The notes under the pieces were generated by a model that saw only the letters and a program-made list of their open reading frames with translations, searched no databases and was not told where the DNA came from. The translations under genes were made by a program, and so were the position numbers. DNA of 49,437 nt from a virus: positions 1 to 49,437 of the IMG/VR virus record IMGVR_UViG_3300043411_000601; one strand, 5' to 3'. Shown here one piece after another: positions 3,210-36,600 of this stretch. The first letter of the stretch is position 1; every line of letters begins with the position of its first letter.

Positions 3210-3922
3210 AGGCGCAGGTGCTAGTGTTCGTCCCAGCCTTCCGGGGCAACCTCAGTGCGACGGTGTTCGAGACCTCGCATTCCCTGATGTCGGCGTTCAT
3301 GCGCGCGGGCATCGGGGCCTCGATCTCGACCTACTCGTGGCCCGACATCGCCGAGCTGCGCAACATGGTGCTCTCGGTCTGGTACGACGTCATGAAGTCG
3401 TCGACCCACATCCTGTTCGTCGATGACGACATGGGGTTCGCGCCGCAGCTGATCCTCGATATGATCGAGTTCGATGAGCCGGTGGTGGGCGCGATCTATC
3501 CGATGCGGACCACGCCACGGAAGTGGGTCGGCTCCGGCATCGAATCACCCGAGTATCGGCAGGGCTTCATCAACGTTGAGGGTGTCGGTGCCGGCTGCCT
3601 GCTGGTGCGCCGTGATGCGGTCGACCGATTGATCGAGCACTTCCCGGACCTGATCGGCGACTACATGGTGCTCGAAGACATGAAGGCGGCCGGCGGCTAC
3701 CGCACGTTGCAGTTCTTCGACCAAATCCGCACCGACAAGGGCAAGGTGTCCGAGGACATCAGCTTCTGCCGGCGCTGGCGTCAGACCGGCGGCGATGTGT
3801 GGGCCGCGACCGGGCACGCGATCCAGCATGTGGGCCCGTGGATATTCTCCGGCTGCTTTGCCAAGGAGCGCGACGAGGAAGCAAAGCTGAAGGAGAGTGG
3901 TGATGGCCAAAGCGCCGCCTGA
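3206..3922 (+). CDS. GT-A-fold glycosyltransferase-like protein
   Basis: 238 residues. The N-terminal strand (QVLVFVPAFRGNLS) is followed by SSTHILFVDDDMGFAP, a DxD-type metal/nucleotide-sugar motif. The later KVSEDISFCRRWR block resembles the acidic catalytic motif (ED...R.W) of GT2-like enzymes, and GHAIQHVG may supply a metal-binding His. These features point to a nucleotide-sugar-dependent transferase. Sitting between pre-capsid and capsid genes, it may glycosylate a virion protein or alter host surface sugars; the target is unknown. It starts at ATG 3206 (ATGA overlap with the HNH gene). Confidence 0.8.
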   Translation: MKAQVLVFVPAFRGNLSATVFETSHSLMSAFMRAGIGASISTYSWPDIAELRNMVLSVWYDVMKSSTHILFVDDDMGFAPQLILDMIEFDEPVVGAIYPMRTTPRKWVGSGIESPEYRQGFINVEGVGAGCLLVRRDAVDRLIEHFPDLIGDYMVLEDMKAAGGYRTLQFFDQIRTDKGKVSEDISFCRRWRQTGGDVWAATGHAIQHVGPWIFSGCFAKERDEEAKLKESGDGQSAA

Positions 3923-4130
3923 TTCGCCGGCCGGAAATATCGGTGAGCGTGTGTGCTTGCGAGGCCACCTCGAATGTACAGGCACCGTTGCCGAGGTGAC
4001 GCCGCGCGAGTGGATCGCGGTGACGTGGGACCCGAACTGTTCGGCACCCAAGTTGTGCCACCGCTTCGAGTTGATCGTACTACCTATTGACGGTTCCCAA
4101 AAAAGGACGTATGGGAAAAGTCATCGCTGA
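3903..4130 (+). CDS. Small phage protein, SH3-like candidate
   Basis: 75 residues from ATG 3903, with AAGGAG at 3890-3895. Two in-frame GTG codons at 3897 and 3900 are less well spaced. It overlaps the end of the glycosyltransferase gene in another frame. The sequence (IGERVCLRGHLECTGTVAEVTPREWIAVTWD) alternates short beta strands like a small barrel or KOW/SH3-type fold. Function unknown. The last codons overlap a possible promoter for the capsid genes. Confidence 0.6.
   Translation: MAKAPPDSPAGNIGERVCLRGHLECTGTVAEVTPREWIAVTWDPNCSAPKLCHRFELIVLPIDGSQKRTYGKSHR
4087..4115 (+). promoter_or_regulatory. Candidate sigma70-like promoter upstream of capsid genes
   Basis: TTGACG (4087-4092), a 17-bp spacer, then TATGGG (4110-4115). 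The -35 match is good and the -10 is weak. It precedes the only sizeable gap in this part of the late region, so it could boost capsid expression. Low confidence without transcript data. Confidence 0.25.
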
Positions 4131-5895: not shown

Positions 5896-6591
5896 ATGAC
5901 GACGACGAATTACCCGGACGGCGTTACCAACGCCAGCTACGACGGCGCGAACGGCCAGATGCCGTTCCCGGACCCGACGCTGTGGCACACCTACTTCAAC
6001 GACTTCGACACCTATGTCGCGGGCGACTGGGTCGTCACGCTGATCGGCAATGCTGGTACGGCGGCTCTGACGGCCGGCAACGGCGGCCTGCTCCTGATCA
6101 CCAGCGACGCGCTGGATAACGATGGCGTCGTTCTTCAGAAGACCCCGGCGGGCTTCGCGTTCTCTGCGACCAAGAAGTGCTTCTTCGCCGTCAAGTTCGC
6201 GGCGAGCAAGGCGACCGAGAGCGACATCCAGTTCGGCCTCGTCATCGTCGACGGCACGCCGTTCGATGCGACCGACGGCATCTTCTTCATGAAGGATGAC
6301 GGCGACGCCAACATCGACGTCTACGTCCGCAAGGATGCGACCACCGGGTCGAACAGCAAGACGGCCATCGCGACGCTGGCGGCGGCGACGCAGACCATCC
6401 TCTCGTTCTACTACGATGGTGCCGGCACCCTGTTCTACGGCGTCAACGGGTCGATGGTTGGTTCGATGAGCGCCTCCTCGACCTATCTCCCGGACGCCAC
6501 CAACCTGACCGTCTCGATGGCGCTCAGGAACGGTGAGGCCGGGGCCCAGACCTTGACGGTTGACTACATACTGGCCGCGATGGAGCGGTAA
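5896..6591 (+). CDS. Beta-rich virion protein (lectin-like fold candidate)
   Basis: 231 residues from ATG 5896 with a GAGGGG ribosome-binding site. The sequence reads as alternating strands (FFAVKFAASKATESDIQFGL, DGIFFMKDDGDANIDVYV, TILSFYYDGAGTLFYGVNG), like concanavalin/jelly-roll domains of phage head or tail-associated proteins. No catalytic motif is apparent. Directly after the capsid gene, it is probably a virion surface protein. Confidence 0.65.
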   Translation: MTTTNYPDGVTNASYDGANGQMPFPDPTLWHTYFNDFDTYVAGDWVVTLIGNAGTAALTAGNGGLLLITSDALDNDGVVLQKTPAGFAFSATKKCFFAVKFAASKATESDIQFGLVIVDGTPFDATDGIFFMKDDGDANIDVYVRKDATTGSNSKTAIATLAAATQTILSFYYDGAGTLFYGVNGSMVGSMSASSTYLPDATNLTVSMALRNGEAGAQTLTVDYILAAMER

Positions 6592-8135: not shown

Positions 8136-8824
8136 GTTCCAGTGGGACGTACGACTTTTCCGTCTCCAATGGAGAGGTGGTGCTAGCTGCGTTCGAGCGG
8201 CTGAAGGTGTTCGCGCCGTCGATCCGCACCGAGCACATGCAGACGGCGCGCCGCGAGCTGAACTTCCTGCTGGCCGAGGCCGCCAACAAGCAAGTCAATC
8301 TCTGGAAGGTCGATCAGGTCGACGTCCCGTTGACGGCGGAGGTGGCGACCTATGCGGTGCAGTCACGCACCGTGATGATCCTCGATGCGTGGATCACGCA
8401 AAGTTCAGGATCGTCCCAGATCAACACCTACATCACACCGGTGAGCCGCACCGAGTACGCTTCGTTTTCCAATCGGGAGACGCCCGGTCGGCCGACCTGC
8501 TACTGGTTCGACCGCTTGATGTCGCCGGAGATCACGTTGTGGCCGGTGCCGCCCAGCAGCGGCTACACCCTGAGCTACTACCGCTGCATCCAGATGGAGG
8601 ATGCGAACCTCGCGGGCGGCGAGACGCCAGACATCCCGTACCTGTGGCTGGACTGGTTCGTCGCCGGCCTCGCGCATCGCCTGTCGCGTCCGTACGCCAC
8701 CATCGAGATGGAGAAGTTGCGCAAGGCTGACGCGATGGAGGCGTGGGCGGTGGCGGCGACGCAGAACGTGGAGAACGCGCCGACCACAATGGCCCCGACA
8801 ATTTCGTCGTACTATCGCAGATAG
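8132..8824 (+). CDS. P22 gp4-like head-tail adaptor
   Basis: 230 residues. The pattern matches podovirus tail-accessory/adaptor proteins: an N-terminal helix with ERLKVFAPSIRTEHMQTARRELN, a central region ending in ITLWPVPPSSGYTLSYYRCIQ (strand plus hydrophobic YY motif), then WLDWFVAGLAHRLSRPY and a helical C-terminus. These proteins form the ring between portal and tail nozzle. A second, diverged adaptor-like gene lies at 12360. The start is set by the ATGA overlap with the GIY-YIG gene. Confidence 0.7.
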   Translation: MSSSGTYDFSVSNGEVVLAAFERLKVFAPSIRTEHMQTARRELNFLLAEAANKQVNLWKVDQVDVPLTAEVATYAVQSRTVMILDAWITQSSGSSQINTYITPVSRTEYASFSNRETPGRPTCYWFDRLMSPEITLWPVPPSSGYTLSYYRCIQMEDANLAGGETPDIPYLWLDWFVAGLAHRLSRPYATIEMEKLRKADAMEAWAVAATQNVENAPTTMAPTISSYYRR

Positions 8825-31423: not shown

Positions 31424-31498
31424 GCTGCTGTAGTTCAGTGGCAGAACGCCTGCCTTGTAAGCAGGATGTCCGGCGTCCGATTCGTCGCGGCAGCACCA
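31424..31498 (+). tRNA. tRNA-Thr(TGT)
   Basis: Acceptor GCTGCTG/CGGCAGC, D-stem GTTC/GAAC, anticodon stem CCTGC/GCAGG with loop CTTGTAA, T-stem CGGCG/CGTCG with loop TCCGATT, encoded CCA. First tRNA of the array. Confidence 0.9.
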
Positions 31499-31508
31499 AG
31501 CACAGATT

Positions 31509-31582
31509 GCCCCTGAAGCATTGTGACGATGCACGGCCCTCGTAGCGCCGTGAGCGGTGTTTGATTCACCGCAGGGGCTCCA
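31509..31582 (+). tRNA. tRNA-Thr(CGT)
   Basis: Acceptor GCCCCTG/CAGGGGC, D-stem GCAT/ATGC, anticodon loop CTCGTAG with a C-C mismatch closing the stem (31-39), T-stem CGGTG/CACCG with loop TTTGATT, discriminator T, encoded CCA. Confidence 0.82.
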
Positions 31583-31684
31583 AGTAGGGAGGGGCATGGG
31601 TTCAAATCCCATCATGAGCATCCCGGTGCATGTCACCGGTCCAGCCCGTGTAGCTCAGTCCGGTAGAGCGCTCCCGCTTTCTTC
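31583..31684 (+). other. Candidate circularly permuted tRNA (3' half before 5' half)
   Basis: Upstream is a tRNA 3' half: GGGAG (31587-31591), variable GGGC, T-arm ATGGG-TTCAAAT-CCCAT (31596-31612), acceptor strand CATGAGC (31613-31619) and A. Then comes a spacer with a CCGGT/ACCGG hairpin. Downstream is a 5' half: GCCCGTG (31644-31650), TA, D-arm GCTC-AGTCCGGTA-GAGC, G, CTCCC (31671-31675). CTCCC pairs fully with GGGAG, and GCCCGTG pairs with CATGAGC at six of seven positions (one C-A mismatch, one G-U). The halves abut complete tRNA-Thr genes on both sides. Alternatives are two unrelated fragments left by deletions. The anticodon is not determinable. Confidence 0.5.
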
Positions 31685-31758
31685 GCCCGCTTATTTCAAT
31701 GGCAGAATGGCTCTTTGGTAAGGAGTTGACGCTGGATCGTAACCAGCAGTGGGCACCA
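31685..31758 (+). tRNA. tRNA-Thr(GGT)
   Basis: Acceptor GCCCGCT/AGTGGGC, anticodon stem GCTCT/GGAGT with loop TTGGTAA, T-stem GCTGG/CCAGC with unusual loop ATCGTAA (no T54), encoded CCA. Its 5' end directly follows the orphan 5' tRNA half. Confidence 0.85.
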
Positions 31759-31763
31759 TCAAT

Positions 31764-31848
31764 GCGAGGCTGGCGGAACTGGCAGACGCGCTGCACTCAG
31801 ACTGCAGTGAAGAAATTCGTGGGAGTTCGACCCTCCCGTCTCGCACCA
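31764..31848 (+). tRNA. tRNA-Leu(CAG)
   Basis: Acceptor GCGAGGC/GTCTCGC, long variable arm typical of class II, anticodon stem CTGCA/TGCAG with loop CTCAGAC, T-loop TTCGACC, encoded CCA. Confidence 0.92.
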
Positions 31849-31853
31849 AATTA

Positions 31854-31942
31854 GCCGGGTTGGCGGAATGGTAGACGCCGACGCCTCAAAAGCGCTCCGA
31901 TCAGTGATGATCATGCGAGTTCGAATCTCGCACCCGGTACCA
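31854..31942 (+). tRNA. tRNA-Leu(CAA)
   Basis: Acceptor GCCGGGT/ACCCGGT, class II variable arm (GATCAGTGATGATC), anticodon loop CTCAAAA with a partly mismatched stem, T-loop TTCGAAT, encoded CCA. An HNH gene starts two bases after the CCA. Confidence 0.9.
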
Positions 31943-31944
31943 TC

Positions 31945-32337
31945 ATGAGCGAAAAGAAAAGATCACTGCTTGGTATGCCGATAGGCACCGCAGCTCACCG
32001 CCTTCGACAGGCTGTGCTATTTGCACTGGTGGTTAAAGCCGGAAAGAATTTTTGCCATCGGTGTGGTGGCGAGATCGTCTCGGCCGAGGAGATGTCTCTC
32101 GATCATGTCGAGTCATGGGAGGGAGCTGCTGATCCGATTGCAGCATTCTTTGATGTCGACAATGTCGGCTTCTCGCATCGGCCCTGCAACTACGGCGCGG
32201 CCTTAAGGCCAAACAAAATCTACGCCTCAAAGTTAGAGGCGGATCGAGCTAGTGATCGCAGACGCACCCCGCAGAGGGTCGCCACCAAGAGAGCGCGCCG
32301 AGCCCGGCTGCGCGAGGCTGGTCTGCCGTATCACTGA
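31945..32337 (+). CDS. HNH endonuclease inside the tRNA array
   Basis: 130 residues from ATG 31945. HNH/zinc signature: NFCHRCGGEIVSAEEMSLDHVESW, then DNVGFSHRPCNYGAALRPNK; the C-terminus is strongly basic (RRTPQRVATKRARRARLRE). It sits between tRNA-Leu(CAA) and tRNA-Val(TAC) on the same strand. It is probably a homing-type enzyme using the conserved tRNA region as a safe site, and would be co-transcribed with the tRNAs. Confidence 0.85.
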   Translation: MSEKKRSLLGMPIGTAAHRLRQAVLFALVVKAGKNFCHRCGGEIVSAEEMSLDHVESWEGAADPIAAFFDVDNVGFSHRPCNYGAALRPNKIYASKLEADRASDRRRTPQRVATKRARRARLREAGLPYH

Positions 32338-32347
32338 TCAAATTCAC

Positions 32348-32422
32348 GCCCCCTGAGCCAGATGGGAAGGCACCGGTTTTACACGCCGGCAAGACGCGGC
32401 TCGATCCCGCGAGGGGGTACCA
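32348..32422 (+). tRNA. tRNA-Val(TAC)
   Basis: Acceptor GCCCCCT/AGGGGGT, D-stem GCC/GGC, anticodon stem CCGGT/GCCGG with loop TTTACAC, T-stem CGCGG/CCGCG with loop CTCGATC, encoded CCA. Confidence 0.88.
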
Positions 32423-32427
32423 ACAAC

Positions 32428-32502
32428 GCGCGCTTAGATCATCAGCGGATCGCCTGCGTGACATGCAGGAGGCGGCAGGGGCAGCACCTGCAGCGCGCAC
32501 CA
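32428..32502 (+). tRNA. tRNA-Val(GAC)
   Basis: Acceptor GCGCGCT/AGCGCGC, D-stem GATC/GATC, anticodon stem CCTGC/GCAGG with loop GTGACAT, T-stem GCAGG/CCTGC with non-canonical loop GGCAGCA, encoded CCA. Confidence 0.82.
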
Positions 32503-32507
32503 TCAAC

Positions 32508-32581
32508 GGTCCCTTCGTCTAATAGTAGGGCACGCGGCCGATAACCGTGGAGCGGCGGGGCAGAACCGTCAGGGACTACCA
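32508..32581 (+). tRNA. tRNA-Ile(GAT)
   Basis: Acceptor GGTCCCT/AGGGACT, anticodon stem CGCGG/CCGTG with loop CCGATAA, so position 33 is C instead of the near-universal U. T-stem GGCGG/CCGTC with non-canonical loop GGCAGAA, encoded CCA. Confidence 0.78.
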
Positions 32582-32594
32582 ACAGGAGCACACC

Positions 32595-32717
32595 ATGTGC
32601 GTTCATTGCGACACCGGCGACAAGCCGACGAAGCTGAAGCGTCAGTGGGTGCATCACACGCCGGCCACCGGCCGCATCGTGGTCTGCACCGCGCACGATC
32701 TGAAACCCGGGTCCTGA
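32595..32717 (+). CDS. 40-residue CxxC protein between tRNAs
   Basis: ATG 32595 with AGGAG (32584-32588) six bases upstream. The 40-residue product has CVHC near the N-terminus, WVHH in the middle and VVCTAH near the end, a Cys/His set that could bind one zinc. It lies between tRNA-Ile and tRNA-Lys. No homology is claimed. The strong ribosome-binding site and compact Cys/His pattern argue for a real small protein. Confidence 0.6.
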   Translation: MCVHCDTGDKPTKLKRQWVHHTPATGRIVVCTAHDLKPGS

Positions 32718-32719
32718 TT

Positions 32720-32794
32720 GGACCCGGAGTAGGAAAGTAGCACGCTGGCCTTTTAACCCATGCGAACTCGGGGCAGTACCGAGCGGGTTCACCA
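32720..32794 (+). tRNA. tRNA-Lys(TTT)
   Basis: Acceptor GGACCCG/CGGGTTC, anticodon loop CTTTTAA with only three firm pairs in its stem (CTGGC/CCCAT), T-stem CTCGG/CCGAG with non-canonical loop GGCAGTA, encoded CCA. Confidence 0.78.
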
Positions 32795-32800
32795 ATTCGA

Positions 32801-32875
32801 GGGCTCCTAGCATAAAGGCAATGCGCTGGCCTCTTAACCCATGAGAACACGGATCGTTACCGTGGGAGCCCACCA
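32801..32875 (+). tRNA. tRNA-Lys(CTT)
   Basis: Acceptor GGGCTCC/GGAGCCC, D-stem GCAT/ATGC, anticodon loop CTCTTAA with the same weak CTGGC/CCCAT stem as tRNA-Lys(TTT), T-stem CACGG/CCGTG with loop ATCGTTA, encoded CCA. Confidence 0.8.
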
Positions 32876-32880
32876 ACAAC

Positions 32881-32967
32881 GTGCATGTGTCGGAACTGGT
32901 AGACGAGCAGCCCTGAGAAGGCTGTGGCCGCAAGGTCGTCGGTGTTCGAGTCACCGTATGCACACCA
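32881..32967 (+). tRNA. tRNA-Leu(GAG)
   Basis: Acceptor GTGCATG/TATGCAC, class II variable arm (GGCCGCAAGGTC), anticodon stem CAGCC/GGCTG with loop CTGAGAA, T-loop TTCGAGT, encoded CCA. Confidence 0.9.
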
Positions 32968-32971
32968 TCAT

Positions 32972-33046
32972 GGCCCTATAGCTCAACGGTAGAGCACCCG
33001 CCTGTCGAGCGGAAGGTCCGGGGGTCAGCACCCCGTAGGGTCGCCA
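32972..33046 (+). tRNA. tRNA-Asp(GTC)
   Basis: Acceptor GGCCCTA/TAGGGTC, D-stem GCTC/GAGC, anticodon loop CTGTCGA, discriminator G as expected for Asp, T-stem CGGGG/CCCCG with non-canonical loop GTCAGCA, encoded CCA. Confidence 0.85.
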
Positions 33047-33051
33047 TTTAT

Positions 33052-33125
33052 CTCTGCAAAGCTCGTGAGAAGAGCGCCGCCCTTGGAAGGCGGAGGACGG
33101 AAGGCGGAACTCCGTGCGGAGACCA
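33052..33125 (+). tRNA. tRNA-Pro(TGG)
   Basis: Acceptor CTCTGCA/TGCGGAG, D-stem GCTC/GAGC, anticodon stem CCGCC/GGCGG with loop CTTGGAA, T-stem CGGAA/CTCCG (last pair A-C) with non-canonical loop GGCGGAA, encoded CCA. Confidence 0.8.
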
Positions 33126-33130
33126 GTTTC

Positions 33131-33206
33131 GGGCGTTGAGCCAGATGGGAAGGCCTGCTGCTCATAACAGTAAGAGGACGGGGTTCGATCCCCCGAGCGC
33201 CCACCA
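33131..33206 (+). tRNA. tRNA-Met(CAT), first copy
   Basis: Acceptor GGGCGTT/AGCGCCC, D-stem GCC/GGC, anticodon stem TGCTG/CAGTA with loop CTCATAA, T-loop TTCGATC, encoded CCA. It could be elongator Met or an Ile2-type CAT tRNA. Its final A is the first base of the next ATG. Confidence 0.85.
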
Positions 33207-33622
33207 TGAAGATCATCGCCAAGTACATCCCGCAGCTGGAGCCGCCGCAGCTGGTGCTCTACATCCACGACGCGCCGCACCGCCGGATGCACATCAAGGT
33301 GATCCAGCAGTACCGGGTGTTCCTGCACGAGGCGATCCTCAAGACCGGCATCAGCCTGCCGATCAAGCACGACATCGAGCTGGATGTTCTGTTCGTCAAC
33401 CCGGCCACTCCTGACCTTGGCAACGCCTATCTGGCGTTGGAGCAGGCCCTCGACGACAAGACGTTGACGAAGCCCGGCATCGTGGTGGACGACAGCCTGA
33501 TCCAGAAGGTGACCATGGCGAAGTGGTTCAATGGTCGCGCGAAAGAAATAACGTCACGTAGCTCAACTGGAAAGAGCGCGGGTTTCCGAAGCCCGAGGCC
33601 GGATGTTCGAGTCATCCCGTGA
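33206..33622 (+). CDS. RusA-like Holliday junction resolvase reading into a tRNA
   Basis: 138 residues; ATG 33206 shares its A with the CCA of the preceding tRNA. The core fits the RusA family: a strand/helix region (RRMHIKVIQQYRVFLHEAI, PIKHDIELDVLFVNP), an acidic motif TPDLGNAYLALEQALDD and a VVDDSLIQKV motif. It would cleave four-way junctions as a dimer. There is no stop before tRNA-Arg(CCG), so the last 23 residues (from about TSRSSTGKSAG) are encoded by that tRNA gene and translation ends inside its acceptor stem. Confidence 0.75.
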   Translation: MKIIAKYIPQLEPPQLVLYIHDAPHRRMHIKVIQQYRVFLHEAILKTGISLPIKHDIELDVLFVNPATPDLGNAYLALEQALDDKTLTKPGIVVDDSLIQKVTMAKWFNGRAKEITSRSSTGKSAGFRSPRPDVRVIP

Positions 33623-33628
33623 CGACCA
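33552..33628 (+). tRNA. tRNA-Arg(CCG)
   Basis: Acceptor CGTCACG/CGTGACG, D-stem GCTC/GAGC, anticodon stem CGGGT/GCCCG with loop TTCCGAA, T-stem GGATG/CATCC with loop TTCGAGT, encoded CCA. Almost the whole gene also serves as the 3' coding end of the RusA-like gene. Confidence 0.9.
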
Positions 33629-33632
33629 TTAC

Positions 33633-33724
33633 GGAGGAGAGAACCGGGAGGGCGTACCGGCGCGGTCTTGAAAACCGAGGGTGGCCGCAGGGCCATGGAG
33701 TTCAAATCTACCCCTCCTCCGCCA
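33633..33724 (+). tRNA. tRNA-Ser(TGA)
   Basis: Acceptor GGAGGAG/CTCCTCC, discriminator G, anticodon loop CTTGAAA, long class II variable arm (GTGGCCGCAGGGCCA), T-loop TTCAAAT, encoded CCA. Confidence 0.9.
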
Positions 33725-33729
33725 ATTCT

Positions 33730-33780
33730 GTGCAGCCCGGATGTAAGGCGCGCACGCGACCGAGTTCAAGCGGCGCACCA
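33730..33780 (+). other. tRNA-like remnant
   Basis: About 51 bases ending in GCGCACCA. GTGC at the 5' side can pair with GCAC at the 3' end, and a T-arm-like CCG-AGTTCAAG-CGG is present. There is too little sequence for a full tRNA, and no convincing D plus anticodon arm pair is seen. It is probably a degraded or deletion-derived tRNA gene. Confidence 0.45.
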
Positions 33781-33783
33781 TTT

Positions 33784-33858
33784 TGCAGGTAACGGTCTGG
33801 TGACCCGTTTGGTCTCATAAGCCACTACAGCCCGGTTCGATTCTGGGGCCTGCAACCA
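33784..33858 (+). tRNA. tRNA-Met(CAT), second copy
   Basis: Acceptor TGCAGGT/GCCTGCA, anticodon loop CTCATAA with stem TTGGT/GCCAC (one mismatch), T-stem CCCGG/CTGGG with loop TTCGATT, encoded CCA. The Met or Ile2 role is unresolved. Confidence 0.82.
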
Positions 33859-33863
33859 GTTAT

Positions 33864-33949
33864 GCCTGTGTATCCCGCTAAGGACGCGGAGCCGTCTGTA
33901 AAACGGAGGCCTTCGGGCTGGGCAGGCTCGATACCTGCAACAGGCACCA
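33864..33949 (+). tRNA. tRNA-Tyr(GTA)
   Basis: Acceptor GCCTGT/ACAGGC, anticodon stem GCCGT/ACGGA region with loop CTGTAAA, class II variable arm (GGCCTTCGGGCT), T-stem GCAGG/CCTGC with loop CTCGATA, encoded CCA. Confidence 0.88.
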
Positions 33950-33950
33950 C

Positions 33951-34024
33951 GCGGACGAATGATTACGGCAGTCGCTGTCGTTGCCAACGATAGAGCCCGA
34001 GTTCGACTCTCGGCGTCCGCGCCA
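33951..34024 (+). tRNA. tRNA-Gly(GCC)
   Basis: Acceptor GCGGACG/CGTCCGC, anticodon stem TGTCG/CGATA with loop TTGCCAA, T-stem CCGAG/CTCGG with loop TTCGACT, discriminator G, encoded CCA. Confidence 0.9.
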
Positions 34025-34029
34025 ATCAC

Positions 34030-34105
34030 GCCCAGATAGCTCAGTCGGTAGAGCGGAGGTTTGAAAAGCCTTGCGTCGGGGGTTCGATCCCTCCTTTGGG
34101 CACCA
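34030..34105 (+). tRNA. tRNA-Phe(GAA)
   Basis: Acceptor GCCCAGA/TTTGGGC, D-stem GCTC/GAGC, anticodon stem GAGGT/GCCTT with loop TTGAAAA, T-stem GGGGG/CCTCC with loop TTCGATC, encoded CCA. An antisense HNH gene ends inside it. Confidence 0.93.
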
Positions 34106-34679
34106 CTTTGGCTCTGTAGTGGCCGAACTGCTTCGCGGTCCTGCGTCGATGGCAGTTGGCACAAACGATGTCGCACTTCTCGATCTCGGTCTTGATGCGA
34201 GACATGGAGATGCCGCCGCTGATGGCCTCAGCTAAATTGAACTTTTTGGTTTTTTGATCGCGGTGATCGAAGTCCAAAACTATGATGTCGTCCTCCCCGC
34301 AATCCATGCACGAGGACCTCTGTAGTAACTCTATAAAAAACTCCCGGGTGCGCTCTCGAACCCCCTTGCGGCTCTCCTTGGTGCGCTCGCGTATTGTGGG
34401 GTCCGCTCTATACTTTTTGGTGTTGTGGCCATTGAGGCAGGCCTTACACCAAGAGTTGGGCCTCTTCCTCCCCGCTGTCGCTGAAGAGCTGAACTCGGTG
34501 AGTGGCTTTAAGGTGCGGCACTTCGTGCATGTCTTTCCATCGTCATATCTAGATGGATCGGCAAACCTACCGGTTGATTTGCAGGATCGGGAGCAGAACC
34601 TACCATTGCCTCGGTTGACGTATTTACGCTCCACCATAAAGGTGATGGAACACGTCTCGCATACTTTTTGTATTTTCAT
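34041..34679 (-). CDS. HNH endonuclease, antisense in the tRNA array
   Basis: 212 residues on the minus strand. Two N-terminal cysteine pairs (VCETC...FCSRSC, and TCTKCRTLKPLTEF...CKAC) are followed by a basic helix and a C-terminal HNH-type zinc core (SCMDCGEDDIIVLDFDHRD...KCDIVCANCHRRRTAKQF). The frame has no stop before tRNA-Phe, so the last about 21 residues (PKGGIEPPTQGFSNLRSTD) are the antisense of that tRNA, ending in its D-arm. Lower GC than the array. Confidence 0.85.
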   Translation of the reverse strand: MKIQKVCETCSITFMVERKYVNRGNGRFCSRSCKSTGRFADPSRYDDGKTCTKCRTLKPLTEFSSSATAGRKRPNSWCKACLNGHNTKKYRADPTIRERTKESRKGVRERTREFFIELLQRSSCMDCGEDDIIVLDFDHRDQKTKKFNLAEAISGGISMSRIKTEIEKCDIVCANCHRRRTAKQFGHYRAKVVPKGGIEPPTQGFSNLRSTD

Positions 34680-34702
34680 GATTTAAAACTACCCCAATCA
34701 CC

Positions 34703-34774
34703 GGGGAAAGCACAAGGGTGCAGTCGATCCTTGCAAGATTGACGCGCCGGGGGCGGTACCCGGTTTCTCCACCA
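34703..34774 (+). tRNA. tRNA-Ala(TGC), minimal D-arm
   Basis: Acceptor GGGGAAA/TTTCTCC with G3-U70, the alanine identity pair. The D-region is shortened to GCAC-AAGG-GTGC directly after the acceptor. Anticodon stem CGATC/GATTG with loop CTTGCAA; T-stem CCGGG/CCCGG with non-canonical loop GGCGGTA; encoded CCA. Confidence 0.75.
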
Positions 34775-34782
34775 TCTTTTAT

Positions 34783-34859
34783 TCCGGTCGGTCCATCTTG
34801 GTGATGGAGGACGGCTGTTAACCGTCATGCGGCAGGTTCGAAACCTGCGACCGGAGCCA
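34783..34859 (+). tRNA. tRNA-Asn(GTT)
   Basis: Acceptor TCCGGTC/GACCGGA, D-arm TCCAT/ATGGA, anticodon stem GACGG/CCGTC with loop CTGTTAA, T-stem GCAGG/CCTGC with loop TTCGAAA, discriminator G, encoded CCA. Confidence 0.92.
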
Positions 34860-34860
34860 T

Positions 34861-34934
34861 GCTGCCATCGTCTATTGGAAGGACACCGCTCTCTCAAAGC
34901 GGAAAGGCGGGGTCAGTACCCGCTGGCAGTGCCA
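34861..34934 (+). tRNA. tRNA-Glu(CTC)
   Basis: Acceptor GCTGCCA/TGGCAGT (G1-U72), anticodon stem CCGCT/AGCGG with loop CTCTCAA, T-stem GCGGG/CCCGC with non-canonical loop GTCAGTA, discriminator G, encoded CCA. Confidence 0.84.
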
Positions 34935-34937
34935 CTT

Positions 34938-35019
34938 GCTGACGTAACCCTCCGTGCTACGAACGCGGACAAAGGTAACTGGATGGAAGATGCGGGTTCG
35001 ACTCCTGCCGTCAGCGCCA
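34938..35019 (+). tRNA. Atypical tRNA-Arg(ACG)-like, displaced D-region
   Basis: Acceptor GCTGACG/CGTCAGC, T-stem GCGGG/CCTGC with loop TTCGACT, discriminator G and CCA are normal. The only good anticodon arm (CCGTG-CTACGAA-CGCGG) comes just seven bases after the acceptor, with no D-arm between. A D-loop-like AACTGGATGGA lies after it instead. Length 82. It could be a rearranged or defective tRNA. Confidence 0.5.
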
Positions 35020-35024
35020 ACCAT

Positions 35025-35101
35025 CTGCGCGTGGGAAAGTCTGGTAATCCGCCTCCCTCGGACGGAGGAGACCGCAGGATCGAAGCCTGCCGCGCAGACC
35101 A
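35025..35101 (+). tRNA. tRNA-Pro(CGG)
   Basis: Acceptor CTGCGCG/CGCGCAG, D-stem GGA/TCC, anticodon stem CCTCC/GGAGG with loop CTCGGAC, T-stem GCAGG/CCTGC with loop ATCGAAG, encoded CCA. Confidence 0.87.
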
Positions 35102-35108
35102 AATTTGA

Positions 35109-35182
35109 TGCTCCATAGCTCAACGGTAGAGCGCCCGGCTCTGACCCGGGAGACCTCAGATCGACACTGAGTGGAGCTGCCA
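35109..35182 (+). tRNA. tRNA-Gln(CTG)
   Basis: Acceptor GCTCCA/TGGAGC with a T1-T72 mismatch, compatible with the weak first pair of tRNA-Gln. D-stem GCTC/GAGC, anticodon loop CTCTGAC, T-stem CTCAG/CTGAG with loop ATCGACA, discriminator G, encoded CCA. Confidence 0.85.
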
Positions 35183-35186
35183 ACAT

Positions 35187-35261
35187 GAGAACGTGGCGGA
35201 GTGGCTACGCGGCAGATTGCAACCCTGTCCCACGGGAGTTCGATTCTCCCCGTTCTCTCCA
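35187..35261 (+). tRNA. tRNA-Cys(GCA)
   Basis: Acceptor GAGAACG/CGTTCTC, discriminator T as usual for Cys, anticodon loop TTGCAAC with stem GCAGA/CCTGT (one mismatch), T-stem GGGAG/CTCCC with loop TTCGATT, encoded CCA. Confidence 0.85.
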
Positions 35262-35262
35262 T

Positions 35263-35344
35263 GTCCCGGTAGCCCGGCCGATCTTCTAAATCGGTACCGG
35301 TAGCGGAGCTGAAATCGGGTGTTCGAATCACCCCCGGGACACCA
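35263..35344 (+). tRNA. Atypical tRNA-Arg(TCT)-like, displaced D-region
   Basis: Acceptor GTCCCGG/CCGGGAC, T-stem GGGTG/CACCC with loop TTCGAAT and CCA are normal. The anticodon arm CCGAT-CTTCTAA-ATCGG follows after only eight bases (TAGCCCGG), and a 22-base stretch containing GGTAGCGGAGC sits between it and the T-arm. Same 82-base layout as the Arg(ACG)-like gene at 34938. Confidence 0.55.
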
Positions 35345-35346
35345 AT

Positions 35347-35423
35347 GTCGACGTCGCCCGACTGGAACGGGTCTCCGCCTCCTAAGCGGATGGTTCGAGG
35401 TTCGAGTCCTCGCGTCGACACCA
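35347..35423 (+). tRNA. tRNA-Arg(CCT)
   Basis: Acceptor GTCGACG/CGTCGAC, D-stem GCCC/GGGT, anticodon stem TCCGC/GCGGA with loop CTCCTAA, T-stem CGAGG/CCTCG with loop TTCGAGT, encoded CCA. Confidence 0.92.
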
Positions 35424-35429
35424 ATTCAT

Positions 35430-35517
35430 GGAAGGCTAACCAGCGAGGCGCTGGCGGCCCCTGCTAAGGGCATGGCACTGGCAACGGTGTGGTGATCGTG
35501 TCTCCAGCCTTCCGCCA
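35430..35517 (+). tRNA. tRNA-Ser(GCT)
   Basis: Acceptor GGAAGGC/GCCTTCC, discriminator G, anticodon loop CTGCTAA between GCCC and GGGC, long variable arm, T-stem TGGTG/CTCCA (one mismatch) with loop ATCGTGT, encoded CCA. Confidence 0.85.
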
Positions 35518-35529
35518 ATTCGATGACAT

Positions 35530-35603
35530 GCGGACGTGGCGTAACAGCAACGCATCTGGCTTCCAACCAGAGGTCCCGGGGGCGGCACCCGGCGTCCGCG
35601 CCA
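35530..35603 (+). tRNA. tRNA-Gly(TCC)
   Basis: Acceptor GCGGACG/CGTCCGC (same as Gly(GCC)), D-stem GCG/CGC, anticodon stem TCTGG/CCAGA with loop CTTCCAA, T-stem CCGGG/CCCGG with non-canonical loop GGCGGCA, encoded CCA. Confidence 0.86.
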
Positions 35604-35609
35604 TTTCAT

Positions 35610-35685
35610 GGACCATTGGTGCAAAGGCATAGCATCCCGGGCCTTCACCCCGGAGACGACGGGTCAGTACCGTCATGGTCTGCCA
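35610..35685 (+). tRNA. tRNA-Glu(TTC)
   Basis: Acceptor GGACCAT/ATGGTCT (G1-U72, as in Glu(CTC)), anticodon stem CCGGG/CCCGG with loop CCTTCAC, so position 33 is C. T-stem GACGG/CCGTC with non-canonical loop GTCAGTA, discriminator G, encoded CCA. Confidence 0.78.
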
Positions 35686-35691
35686 TTTCGA

Positions 35692-35763
35692 TGCGGCACC
35701 ACCGGCGTGGAGGCGGGCCTTTGAAGCCTGCTGAGGTCGGATCGACACCGATTGCCGCTGCCA
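35692..35763 (+). tRNA. tRNA-Gln(TTG), minimal D-arm
   Basis: Acceptor GCGGCA/TGCCGC with T1-T72 mismatch as in Gln(CTG). D-arm shortened to CCAC-CGGC-GTGG directly after the acceptor. Anticodon stem CGGGC/GCCTG with loop CTTTGAA, T-loop ATCGACA, discriminator G, encoded CCA. Confidence 0.78.
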
Positions 35764-35764
35764 T

Positions 35765-35835
35765 CCCGATGCCTCCGGCGAGGAAGCGGCTTTCATACGG
35801 CTGTCAGGGCGGGTCGGCACCGCCCTTCGGGACCA
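35765..35835 (+). tRNA. tRNA-Met(CAT)-like, third copy, minimal D-arm
   Basis: Acceptor CCCGATG/CTTCGGG (one T-T mismatch). D-arm CCTC-CGGC-GAGG follows at once. Anticodon stem CGGCT/GGCTG with loop TTCATAC, T-stem GGCGG/CCGCC with non-canonical loop GTCGGCA, encoded CCA. With 71 bases it is the shortest in the array. Initiator, elongator or Ile2 role is unresolved. Confidence 0.65.
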
Positions 35836-35839
35836 TCAT

Positions 35840-35913
35840 GCTGGGTTAGTCTAACGGTAAGACGCTGGGTTGTGGACCCGGAGTCACAGGATCGACACCT
35901 GTACCCAGTACCA
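35840..35913 (+). tRNA. tRNA-His(GTG)
   Basis: Acceptor GCTGGGT/ACCCAGT (G1-U72), D-stem GTCT/AGAC, anticodon stem CTGGG/CCCGG with loop TTGTGGA, T-stem ACAGG/CCTGT with loop ATCGACA, encoded CCA. No clear extra G-1 is seen. An antisense HNH gene ends inside it. Confidence 0.85.
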
Positions 35914-36439
35914 ATTTTGTACGCCACGAGTTGCATTCGATTGCCGTCTTTCTGCGATGGCAGTTGGCGCACCTGACGTCGCACTTTTTGAGTTCAGCTT
36001 CGAGGCGCTTCACGTTGGCCCCTCGTGGGCTGCATAGGTGAGATATGGCGTATTCTTTATCGCCGCGATCTCGGTGGTCGAACTCTAGGACAAGCGGATC
36101 GGCCTCTCCGCAGGAGATGCATCCGCCGGCAAAACGCTCAAGTATCAGCGCCCTGCATGCCTCGGCTCTAAGGACGGAATTGGTCCTTGCCTTCGCCCTG
36201 TAGCGCGCCTTGTTTTTCCGGTAGTGGTTCCGGCAATACTCGCTGTTCTGCTCCTTGGTCTTTACCTTTCGTGGCCGGCGCTTCGGCCTGATCCGCGATC
36301 TCGGTGGCAGTTTCCCGGTGGCTATGGCCTTTTGAATGCCGGAGTGTGAGCATCCATATTTCTCACCCAGATCATCCCACGACATGCCGTCGAGGTAGGA
36401 AATGGTGATCGCCGCCCAATCATAAATTTTCTTTCCCAT
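35846..36439 (-). CDS. HNH endonuclease, antisense in the tRNA array (second)
   Basis: 197 residues on the minus strand. N-terminal helix-turn-helix-like part (YLDGMSWDDLGEKYGCSHSGIQKAI), a very basic middle, and a C-terminal core related to the other antisense HNH gene (GCISCGEADPLVLEFDHRDRGDK...KCDVRCANCHRRKTAIECNSW). The last about 22 residues (GTGVDPVTPGPQPSVLPLD) are the antisense of tRNA-His. An 11-bp direct repeat CAGTACCAATT (35906-35916 and 36473-36483) flanks the insertion. Low GC. Confidence 0.85.
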   Translation of the reverse strand: MGKKIYDWAAITISYLDGMSWDDLGEKYGCSHSGIQKAIATGKLPPRSRIRPKRRPRKVKTKEQNSEYCRNHYRKNKARYRAKARTNSVLRAEACRALILERFAGGCISCGEADPLVLEFDHRDRGDKEYAISHLCSPRGANVKRLEAELKKCDVRCANCHRRKTAIECNSWRTKLVLGTGVDPVTPGPQPSVLPLD

Positions 36440-36483
36440 GGCGGTGTTTTATACATTCACAGCACTCGGTACCAGTACCAATT

Positions 36484-36558
36484 ACGGGTTAGGTGTTTCG
36501 GTAGCACGCCGGTCTCCAAAACCGTGCAGGGCAGGTTCGACTCCTGCAACCCGTGCCA
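36484..36558 (+). tRNA. tRNA-Trp(CCA)
   Basis: Acceptor ACGGGTT/AACCCGT, D-stem GTG/CAC, anticodon stem CCGGT/ACCGT with loop CTCCAAA, T-stem GCAGG/CCTGC with loop TTCGACT, discriminator G, encoded CCA. Last tRNA of the array. Confidence 0.92.
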
Positions 36559-36564
36559 GTTATG

Positions 36565-36600
36565 AGCCCGTCACCTCACCGGTGGCGGGCTTTTTGCGTT
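36565..36600 (+). terminator. Rho-independent terminator of the tRNA array
   Basis: An 11-bp stem (36565-36575 with 36581-36591: AGCCCGTCACC pairs GGTGGCGGGCT, one G-U) with a TCACC loop, followed by TTTTT and more T-rich sequence. It terminates + strand transcription and separates the array from the convergent minus-strand operon. Confidence 0.92.

Follow-up and report, generated by a model that had tools for sequence, protein, structure and literature searches.

Paired changes at elbow positions 18 and 55 in tRNAs of a phage array and of unrelated tRNA arrays

The viral contig IMGVR_UViG_3300043411_000601 of IMG/VR, analysed here along its full 49,437 nucleotides (the window), carries a tRNA array in which six tRNAs combine G55 in the T-loop with A18 in the D-loop, and the same A18/G55 combination is found in unrelated phages, on plasmids and in tRNA arrays of bacteria. 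The elbow of canonical tRNAs is built on the G18-Psi55, G19-C56 and T54-A58 contacts (PMC4810234, PMC7912444). Covariation among related arrays points to an elbow whose letters have been rewritten and whose contacts are kept, a structural claim that we regard as highly probable, and the best overall explanation is, on balance, probably an alternative, compensated elbow in working backup tRNAs.

Paired changes in the D- and T-loops

The earlier note on this DNA, drawn up from the letters alone, listed ten T-loops with G54 and seven of the form ATCG (A54), all of which a cloverleaf parser recovered at the positions given (Table 1). The T-stems had been described as pairing well, and T-arm mismatches per tRNA indeed amount to 0.03 in the G54/G58 class versus 0.10 in canonical tRNAs. 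Re-folding to regain TTCRA was rejected: no shift of the T-stem yields a canonical loop, and the stems pair in the given register. The G53-C61 pair is retained in nearly all tRNAs, and the pattern of a GGCRG T-arm with CCA has four matches in the window versus 0.00 expected in shuffles; the odd loops are real. The remaining tRNAs had been called canonical TTCRA, which is inexact: Thr(TGT) has TCCGA, Thr(CGT) TTTGA, and Val(TAC) and Tyr CTCGA. About half of the window tRNAs have the canonical T-loop. The array extends past the span first proposed, 32,428-35,835 (Table 1). ARAGORN fails on all six G55 tRNAs of the window and Rfam at its gathering threshold on five of the six, which partly accounts for the escape of G55-type genes from annotation.

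The D-loops change in step with these T-loops. All window tRNAs with G55 (Val, Ile, Lys, Pro, Gly and Ala; T-loops GGCRGNA) carry A18 at a position that is nearly always G, in Ala (GGCGGTA) as the equivalent AAGG of a 4-nt D-loop, and those with T55 behind G54 (Asp, Glu(CTC), Glu(TTC) and the third Met) retain the D-loop GG. To place these changes among relatives, the major capsid protein was used to collect 185 related records in IMG/VR, of which 80 were kept; 31 related contigs were searched for arrays and six contained large ones, giving with the window a set of seven arrays and 199 tRNAs. Statistics on positions 18 and 19 were restricted to 7-nt D-loops (n = 65), in which both positions are fixed by length alone; a T-loop-blind assignment for D-loops of all lengths was dropped because it forces G at 19.

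Within the 65 fixed-length D-loops, the 18-55 combination is G-T in 53, A-G in 11 and G-C in one, and no other combination occurs; under free shuffling, a pattern without exception would arise with a chance of about 1e-12, a figure that ignores relatedness. Positions 19-56 are Watson-Crick in 64 of the 65, across four pair types (G-C 56, A-T 5, T-A 2, C-G 1), with one A-C mismatch; A56 faces U19 in the Val(TAC) and Phe tRNAs whose loop is GGAGG, and G56 faces C19 in Lys(CTT). Among all 199 tRNAs, positions 54-58 are T-A in 103, G-G in 33, A-T in 32, A-A in 26, C-A in four and G-A in one. Mutual information is highest for 54-58, 8-14, 54-60, 18-55, 16-59 and 19-56, each a known tertiary contact or adjacent to one. 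Stronger evidence than the shuffling figure comes from twelve isoacceptors (Ala(TGC), Glu(TTC), Phe, Gly(TCC), His, Ile, Lys(TTT), Met, Pro(TGG), Val(GAC), Val(TAC) and Trp) that occur both with G55 and with T55: in all twelve, on inspection, positions 18 and 55 switch together, G55 members having A18 and T55 members G18. The 4-nt D-loop of Ala co-switches too, being CGGG with T55 and AAGG with G55.

T-loops depart from TTC.A in 105 of the 199 tRNAs, which as a set do not have the canonical bacterial elbow, and covariation at 18-55, 19-56, 54-58 and 8-14 indicates that the D/T-loop tertiary contacts of the tRNA family (RF00005) are maintained. This compensated variation at 54/58, 18/55 and 19/56 strengthens the view that a recurrent alternative loop speaks for selection or common descent. 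Covariation speaks to the partners; the geometries in which A18 would meet G55, and G54 would meet G58, are presumed.

Several other positions vary in the related arrays. The 8-14 pair is T8-A14 or A8-T14 (45 vs 17 in fixed-length loops), the latter for example in Lys(CTT) with GCAT(TAAGGTG) in L122, L124, L126 and L127, and thiolated U8 is therefore impossible in A8-T14 tRNAs. D-loops of five nucleotides or fewer occur in 26 of the 199 tRNAs, in the window in Ala, Gln(TTG) and the third Met; such minimal D-arms have a stem of about 4 bp closing a loop of 4-5 nt, spacer positions 8-9 are apparently absent, and the Ala 18-55 co-switch is still seen. C33 replaces the near-invariant U33 in 16 of the 199 tRNAs and in 31 of the 242 of the wide set.

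Departures from invariant letters, together with minimal D-arms and the ARAGORN misses, might suggest decaying or pseudo-tRNAs. The arms of the G54/G58 class are nevertheless paired as well as those of their canonical neighbours, CCA is encoded in 196 of the 199 tRNAs and the Ala identity element G3-U70 is present in 6/6, all of which argues against pseudogenes, as do the coordinated changes of tertiary pairs. Cloverleaf and CCA, the marks of a functional tRNA in RF00005, are both present, and tRNAs of two G55-recoded bacterial arrays (L398 and L400, described below) reach 32-67 bits in Rfam. A pseudo-tRNA origin is thus very improbable, decay being contradicted by covariation and paired arms, and the window tRNAs are real and probably charged and used.

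Recoded elbows outside the phage group

The earlier note had proposed looking for the T-loop in other phage arrays, and a search with the pattern GGGGCAGNACC-N10-ACCA in IMG/VR and species genomes returned unrelated contigs with A18-type D-loops. Among the matches listed, at least about 20 are genuine tRNAs of such contigs, and their D-loops contain A18-G19, or the AG/AAGG equivalent in minimal D-arms. On contigs of Verrucomicrobia metagenome-assembled genomes, G55 occurs in 20/20 tRNAs of L398, 8/8 of L399 and 13/14 of L400, mostly in TGCRA loops with A18 and occasionally with C18 or U18. Cellular tRNAs tested from the same genomes are canonical in 19/20. The recoded arrays include class II Ser and Leu tRNAs and are therefore not copies of one founder. 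RtcB is encoded inside L398 and RlaP adjoins L400; this RlaP is the sole match in its genome, and the second RtcB match in the L398 genome is a fragment lying where a contig ends.

Plasmid arrays across Nostocales conserve an Ile(GAT) that combines GGCAGTA with AAAAGTGA, despite compensatory stem changes, and Glu(CTC) with TGCAACT and TAGA is also found. These cyanobacterial arrays appear to be relatives of the Anabaena trn operon. The swap was not seen in the named phages sampled: none of 127 tRNAs in ten named phage regions has G55 (A54 occurs in five), and none of 147 tRNAs from the ten named phages and one plasmid array has the A18/G55 elbow.

Further observations were made on these contigs. 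A lone Glu(CTC) with TGCGATT and ATCAGTTA lies on a 153 kb bacterial contig (L379, G033 contig 94), where A18/G55 apparently stands outside an array. Thr-anticodon (TGT) tRNAs with an extended class II variable arm (or a length of 83 nt) occur at 8467-8552 (minus) in L398, 15674-15759 in L404 and 1003-1085 in L371, and may be of Ser type in spite of that anticodon. TAT-anticodon tRNAs of about 92 nt with an apparent long variable arm, which ARAGORN assigns to Ile, lie at 5941-6032 (minus) in L398 and 3858-3949 (minus) in L401.

Possible origins of the altered elbow

In the proposed structure, A18 with G55 would replace G18-Psi55, G54 with G58 (together with A60) would replace the T54-A58 pair, and 19-56 would stay Watson-Crick across pair types, with 8-14 flipping as well. 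From the letters and known enzyme sites, the G55/A18 class cannot carry Psi55 or Gm18 and the G54/G58 class cannot carry m5U54 or m1A58. Such tRNAs most probably belong to a mobile backup set, carried by phages, plasmids and islands, that would sustain translation when host tRNAs are damaged or scarce. Context for this reading is provided by the Anabaena trn array, which translational stress induces and which TrcR represses together with rtcB (PMC10272220), and by the view that phage tRNA arrays stand in for host tRNAs that have been cleaved (PMC7824862). The rewritten elbow would then allow folding without host elbow modification and/or escape from an elbow-reading enzyme. Independence from, or escape of, such enzymes is tentatively suggested as the driver. 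The broader proposal, in which A18-G55 with or without G54-G58 is a second natural elbow solution that works without modification and arose or spread repeatedly in mobile arrays for enzyme independence or invisibility, is plausible, although we hold it with less than even confidence.

Several findings weigh against the preferred explanation as a whole. Canonical and alternative elbows coexist in the window group, so that the alternative does not look strictly required there, and many swaps keep T54/A58 (the TGCRA class), so that one escaped modification cannot explain all classes. Among 27 fixed-length G55 loops of the wide set, the A18 rule is broken by two C18 and one G18, and also by Calothrix Ile. 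The unrelated arrays are a non-random sample, having been found by the GGCAG T-loop search itself, and searches of the phage relatives turned up neither RtcB nor RlaP.

The main rival is compensated neutral drift, in which mobile tRNAs, freed from cellular constraints such as modification enzymes and lifelong heavy use, let the elbow wander without advantage. It is possible for the mixed arrays of the window phage group, where many solutions occur in one array (TTCRA, ATCG, GTCRG, GGCRG, GGAGG, AGCGT and TGCAA), other invariants vary also (8-14, C33 for U33, minimal D-arms) and states are mixed among related arrays. Overall, we consider it less likely than not: the three Verrucomicrobia arrays are nearly all G55, unrelated class II tRNAs included, the named phages sampled lack G55 although they are likewise carriers of mobile tRNAs, and the GGCAGNA solution has been reached repeatedly.

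The existence of wholly recoded arrays suggests a directional pressure, which might come from a nuclease, of host or phage, that recognises the canonical elbow, the phage set surviving the destruction of host tRNAs. Coverage of all 20 amino acids by the phage set and the RNA-repair genes beside or in two of the three recoded bacterial arrays would fit such an escape. It is nonetheless unlikely, as no such nuclease was identified in this analysis and about half of the window tRNAs retain TTCRA. Known tRNA-cutting defences, moreover, act mostly at the anticodon loop or the 3' end. Anticodon cleavage of tRNAs has been described (PMC7824862, PMC7790460).

Two further accounts carry very little weight. 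Avoidance of integrases or homologous recombination aimed at the conserved 3' half of tRNA genes draws on T-loops of tRNA genes serving as integration sites (PMC1762012), but it does not predict one particular recurring loop and leaves many canonical T-arms in the same array; it is scarcely probable. Hardly any probability attaches to non-ribosomal tRNAs (e.g., donors for peptide synthesis) held off the ribosome by the changed elbow: work listed in PMC4810234 links the 18-55 pair to translocation, so that its alteration could affect ribosome use, yet at least 12 isoacceptors with normal anticodons are involved and a special role would touch one or two amino acids. Working backup tRNAs with a compensated elbow remain the preferred explanation.

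The window array and its place among known tRNAs

The window is a viral contig with tail, capsid and amidase genes. Its array comprises 32 cloverleafs found by a structural parser and four others (Met at 33131-33206, Ser(TGA), Arg(ACG) and Arg(TCT)) detected by ARAGORN, covariance model R1, an earlier parser pass or by eye. Pfam and PHROGs searches of the window revealed no gene that would explain the odd elbows; the hits were to HNH/homing nucleases, Erf, structural genes and one exonuclease of RNase_T type. A strong terminator-like hairpin lies directly 3' of the array. tRNA-His has A73 in six of the seven related arrays; A73 without G-1, as in the window, is a trait of alphaproteobacteria and may hint at the host. 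Some relatives with capsids 92-95% identical to that of the window have no tRNA array, and G004 and G005, with capsids 96% and 95% identical to it, have 26 and 0 tRNA matches, respectively, which indicates that the array is gained and lost as a block.

Table 1. Positions and loop features of the tRNA array and its components in the window
Feature	Position	Strand	Observations
tRNA array	31424-36558	+	about 36 tRNA genes, 20 amino acids, HNH-type ORFs interposed
tRNA-Val(GAC)	32428-32502	+	T-loop GGCAGCA (32480-32486); D-loop ATCAGCG, A18 G19 (32441-32447)
tRNA-Ile(GAT)	32508-32581	+	T-loop GGCAGAA; D-loop AATAGTA, A18; C33
tRNA-Lys(TTT)	32720-32794	+	T-loop GGCAGTA; D-loop GGAAAGTAG, A18 G19
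tRNA-Asp(GTC)	32972-33046	+	T-loop GTCAGCA, G54 T55; D-loop AACGGTA, G18 G19
tRNA-Pro(TGG)	33052-33125	+	T-loop GGCGGAA; D-loop GTGAGAA, A18
tRNA-Ala(TGC)	34703-34774	+	T-loop GGCGGTA; minimal D-arm, 4 bp, loop AAGG; G3-U70 kept
tRNA-Glu(CTC)	34861-34934	+	T-loop GTCAGTA; D-loop ATTGGAA, G18
tRNA-Gly(TCC)	35530-35603	+	T-loop GGCGGCA; D-loop AACAGCA, A18
tRNA-Glu(TTC)	35610-35685	+	T-loop GTCAGTA; D-loop AAAGGCATA, G18; C33
third tRNA-Met(CAT)	35765-35835	+	T-loop GTCGGCA; minimal D-arm CCTC-CGGC-GAGG
tRNA-Thr(GGT)	31685-31758	+	T-loop ATCGTAA, A54 T58
tRNA-Lys(CTT)	32801-32875	+	T-loop ATCGTTA
tRNA-Pro(CGG)	35025-35101	+	T-loop ATCGAAG
tRNA-Gln(CTG)	35109-35182	+	T-loop ATCGACA
tRNA-Ser(GCT)	35430-35517	+	T-loop ATCGTGT
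tRNA-Gln(TTG)	35692-35763	+	T-loop ATCGACA; minimal D-arm CCAC-CGGC-GTGG
tRNA-His(GTG)	35840-35913	+	T-loop ATCGACA; A73, no G-1
tRNA-Thr(CGT)	31509-31582	+	T-loop TTTGATT (U56), D-loop TGTGACG (A19): 19-56 A-U pair
HNH endonuclease ORF	31945-32337		between tRNA genes
HNH endonuclease ORF	34041-34679		between tRNA genes
HNH endonuclease ORF	35846-36439		between tRNA genes
Terminator-like hairpin	36564-36592		directly 3' of the array

With its dense genes, near-complete amino-acid set and phage contig, the window array is of the mobile long tRNA array (L-array) type; a linked RNA-repair gene, which does not strictly define that type, is absent, the window and its phage relatives being without RtcB and RlaP. 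Like the Anabaena trn operon and other long bacterial arrays (PMC10272220), it is a mobile, supernumerary and large tRNA set, and the Nostocales plasmid arrays, of the long bacterial type, hold a few A18/G55 tRNAs. In a literature search limited to open-licence papers, no description was found of A18-G55 tRNAs or of elbow recoding in long bacterial tRNA arrays.

The altered elbow shares with the canonical one the seven-base T-loop, the G53-C61 closing pair, a mostly C56-G19 contact and the same covarying positions, but differs in A18-G55 (also C18-G55 and U18-G55), in G54-G58 or A54-T58, and in the common occurrence of U-A, A-U and C-G at 19-56. T-loops with A54-A58 are known from eukaryotic initiator tRNA and some eukaryotic tRNA-Ala, such unusual pairs being reported absent from bacterial tRNAs (PMC7566577). 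The present loops resemble them in the purine-purine 54-58 combination and an often purine 60; unlike them, A54-A58 occurs here in phage arrays, together with G54-G58 and the 18-55 switch. The wider literature offers a laboratory parallel: the Steinberg group reportedly selected suppressor tRNAs from randomised D- and T-loops and found that non-natural combinations can work. Those are said to be laboratory selections, whereas the present arrays are natural.

A class of phage tRNA is overlooked by a common tRNA finder, as the G55 tRNAs of the window illustrate. Residues 18, 19, 54, 55, 56 and 58 are taught as near-invariant, and a natural compensated set separates the contacts that are physically required from the letters that may serve enzymes only. 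Ready-made tRNAs without the usual modification sites would also allow tests of what TruB, TrmA, TrmI and TrmH do and of what the 18-55 pair contributes to translocation.

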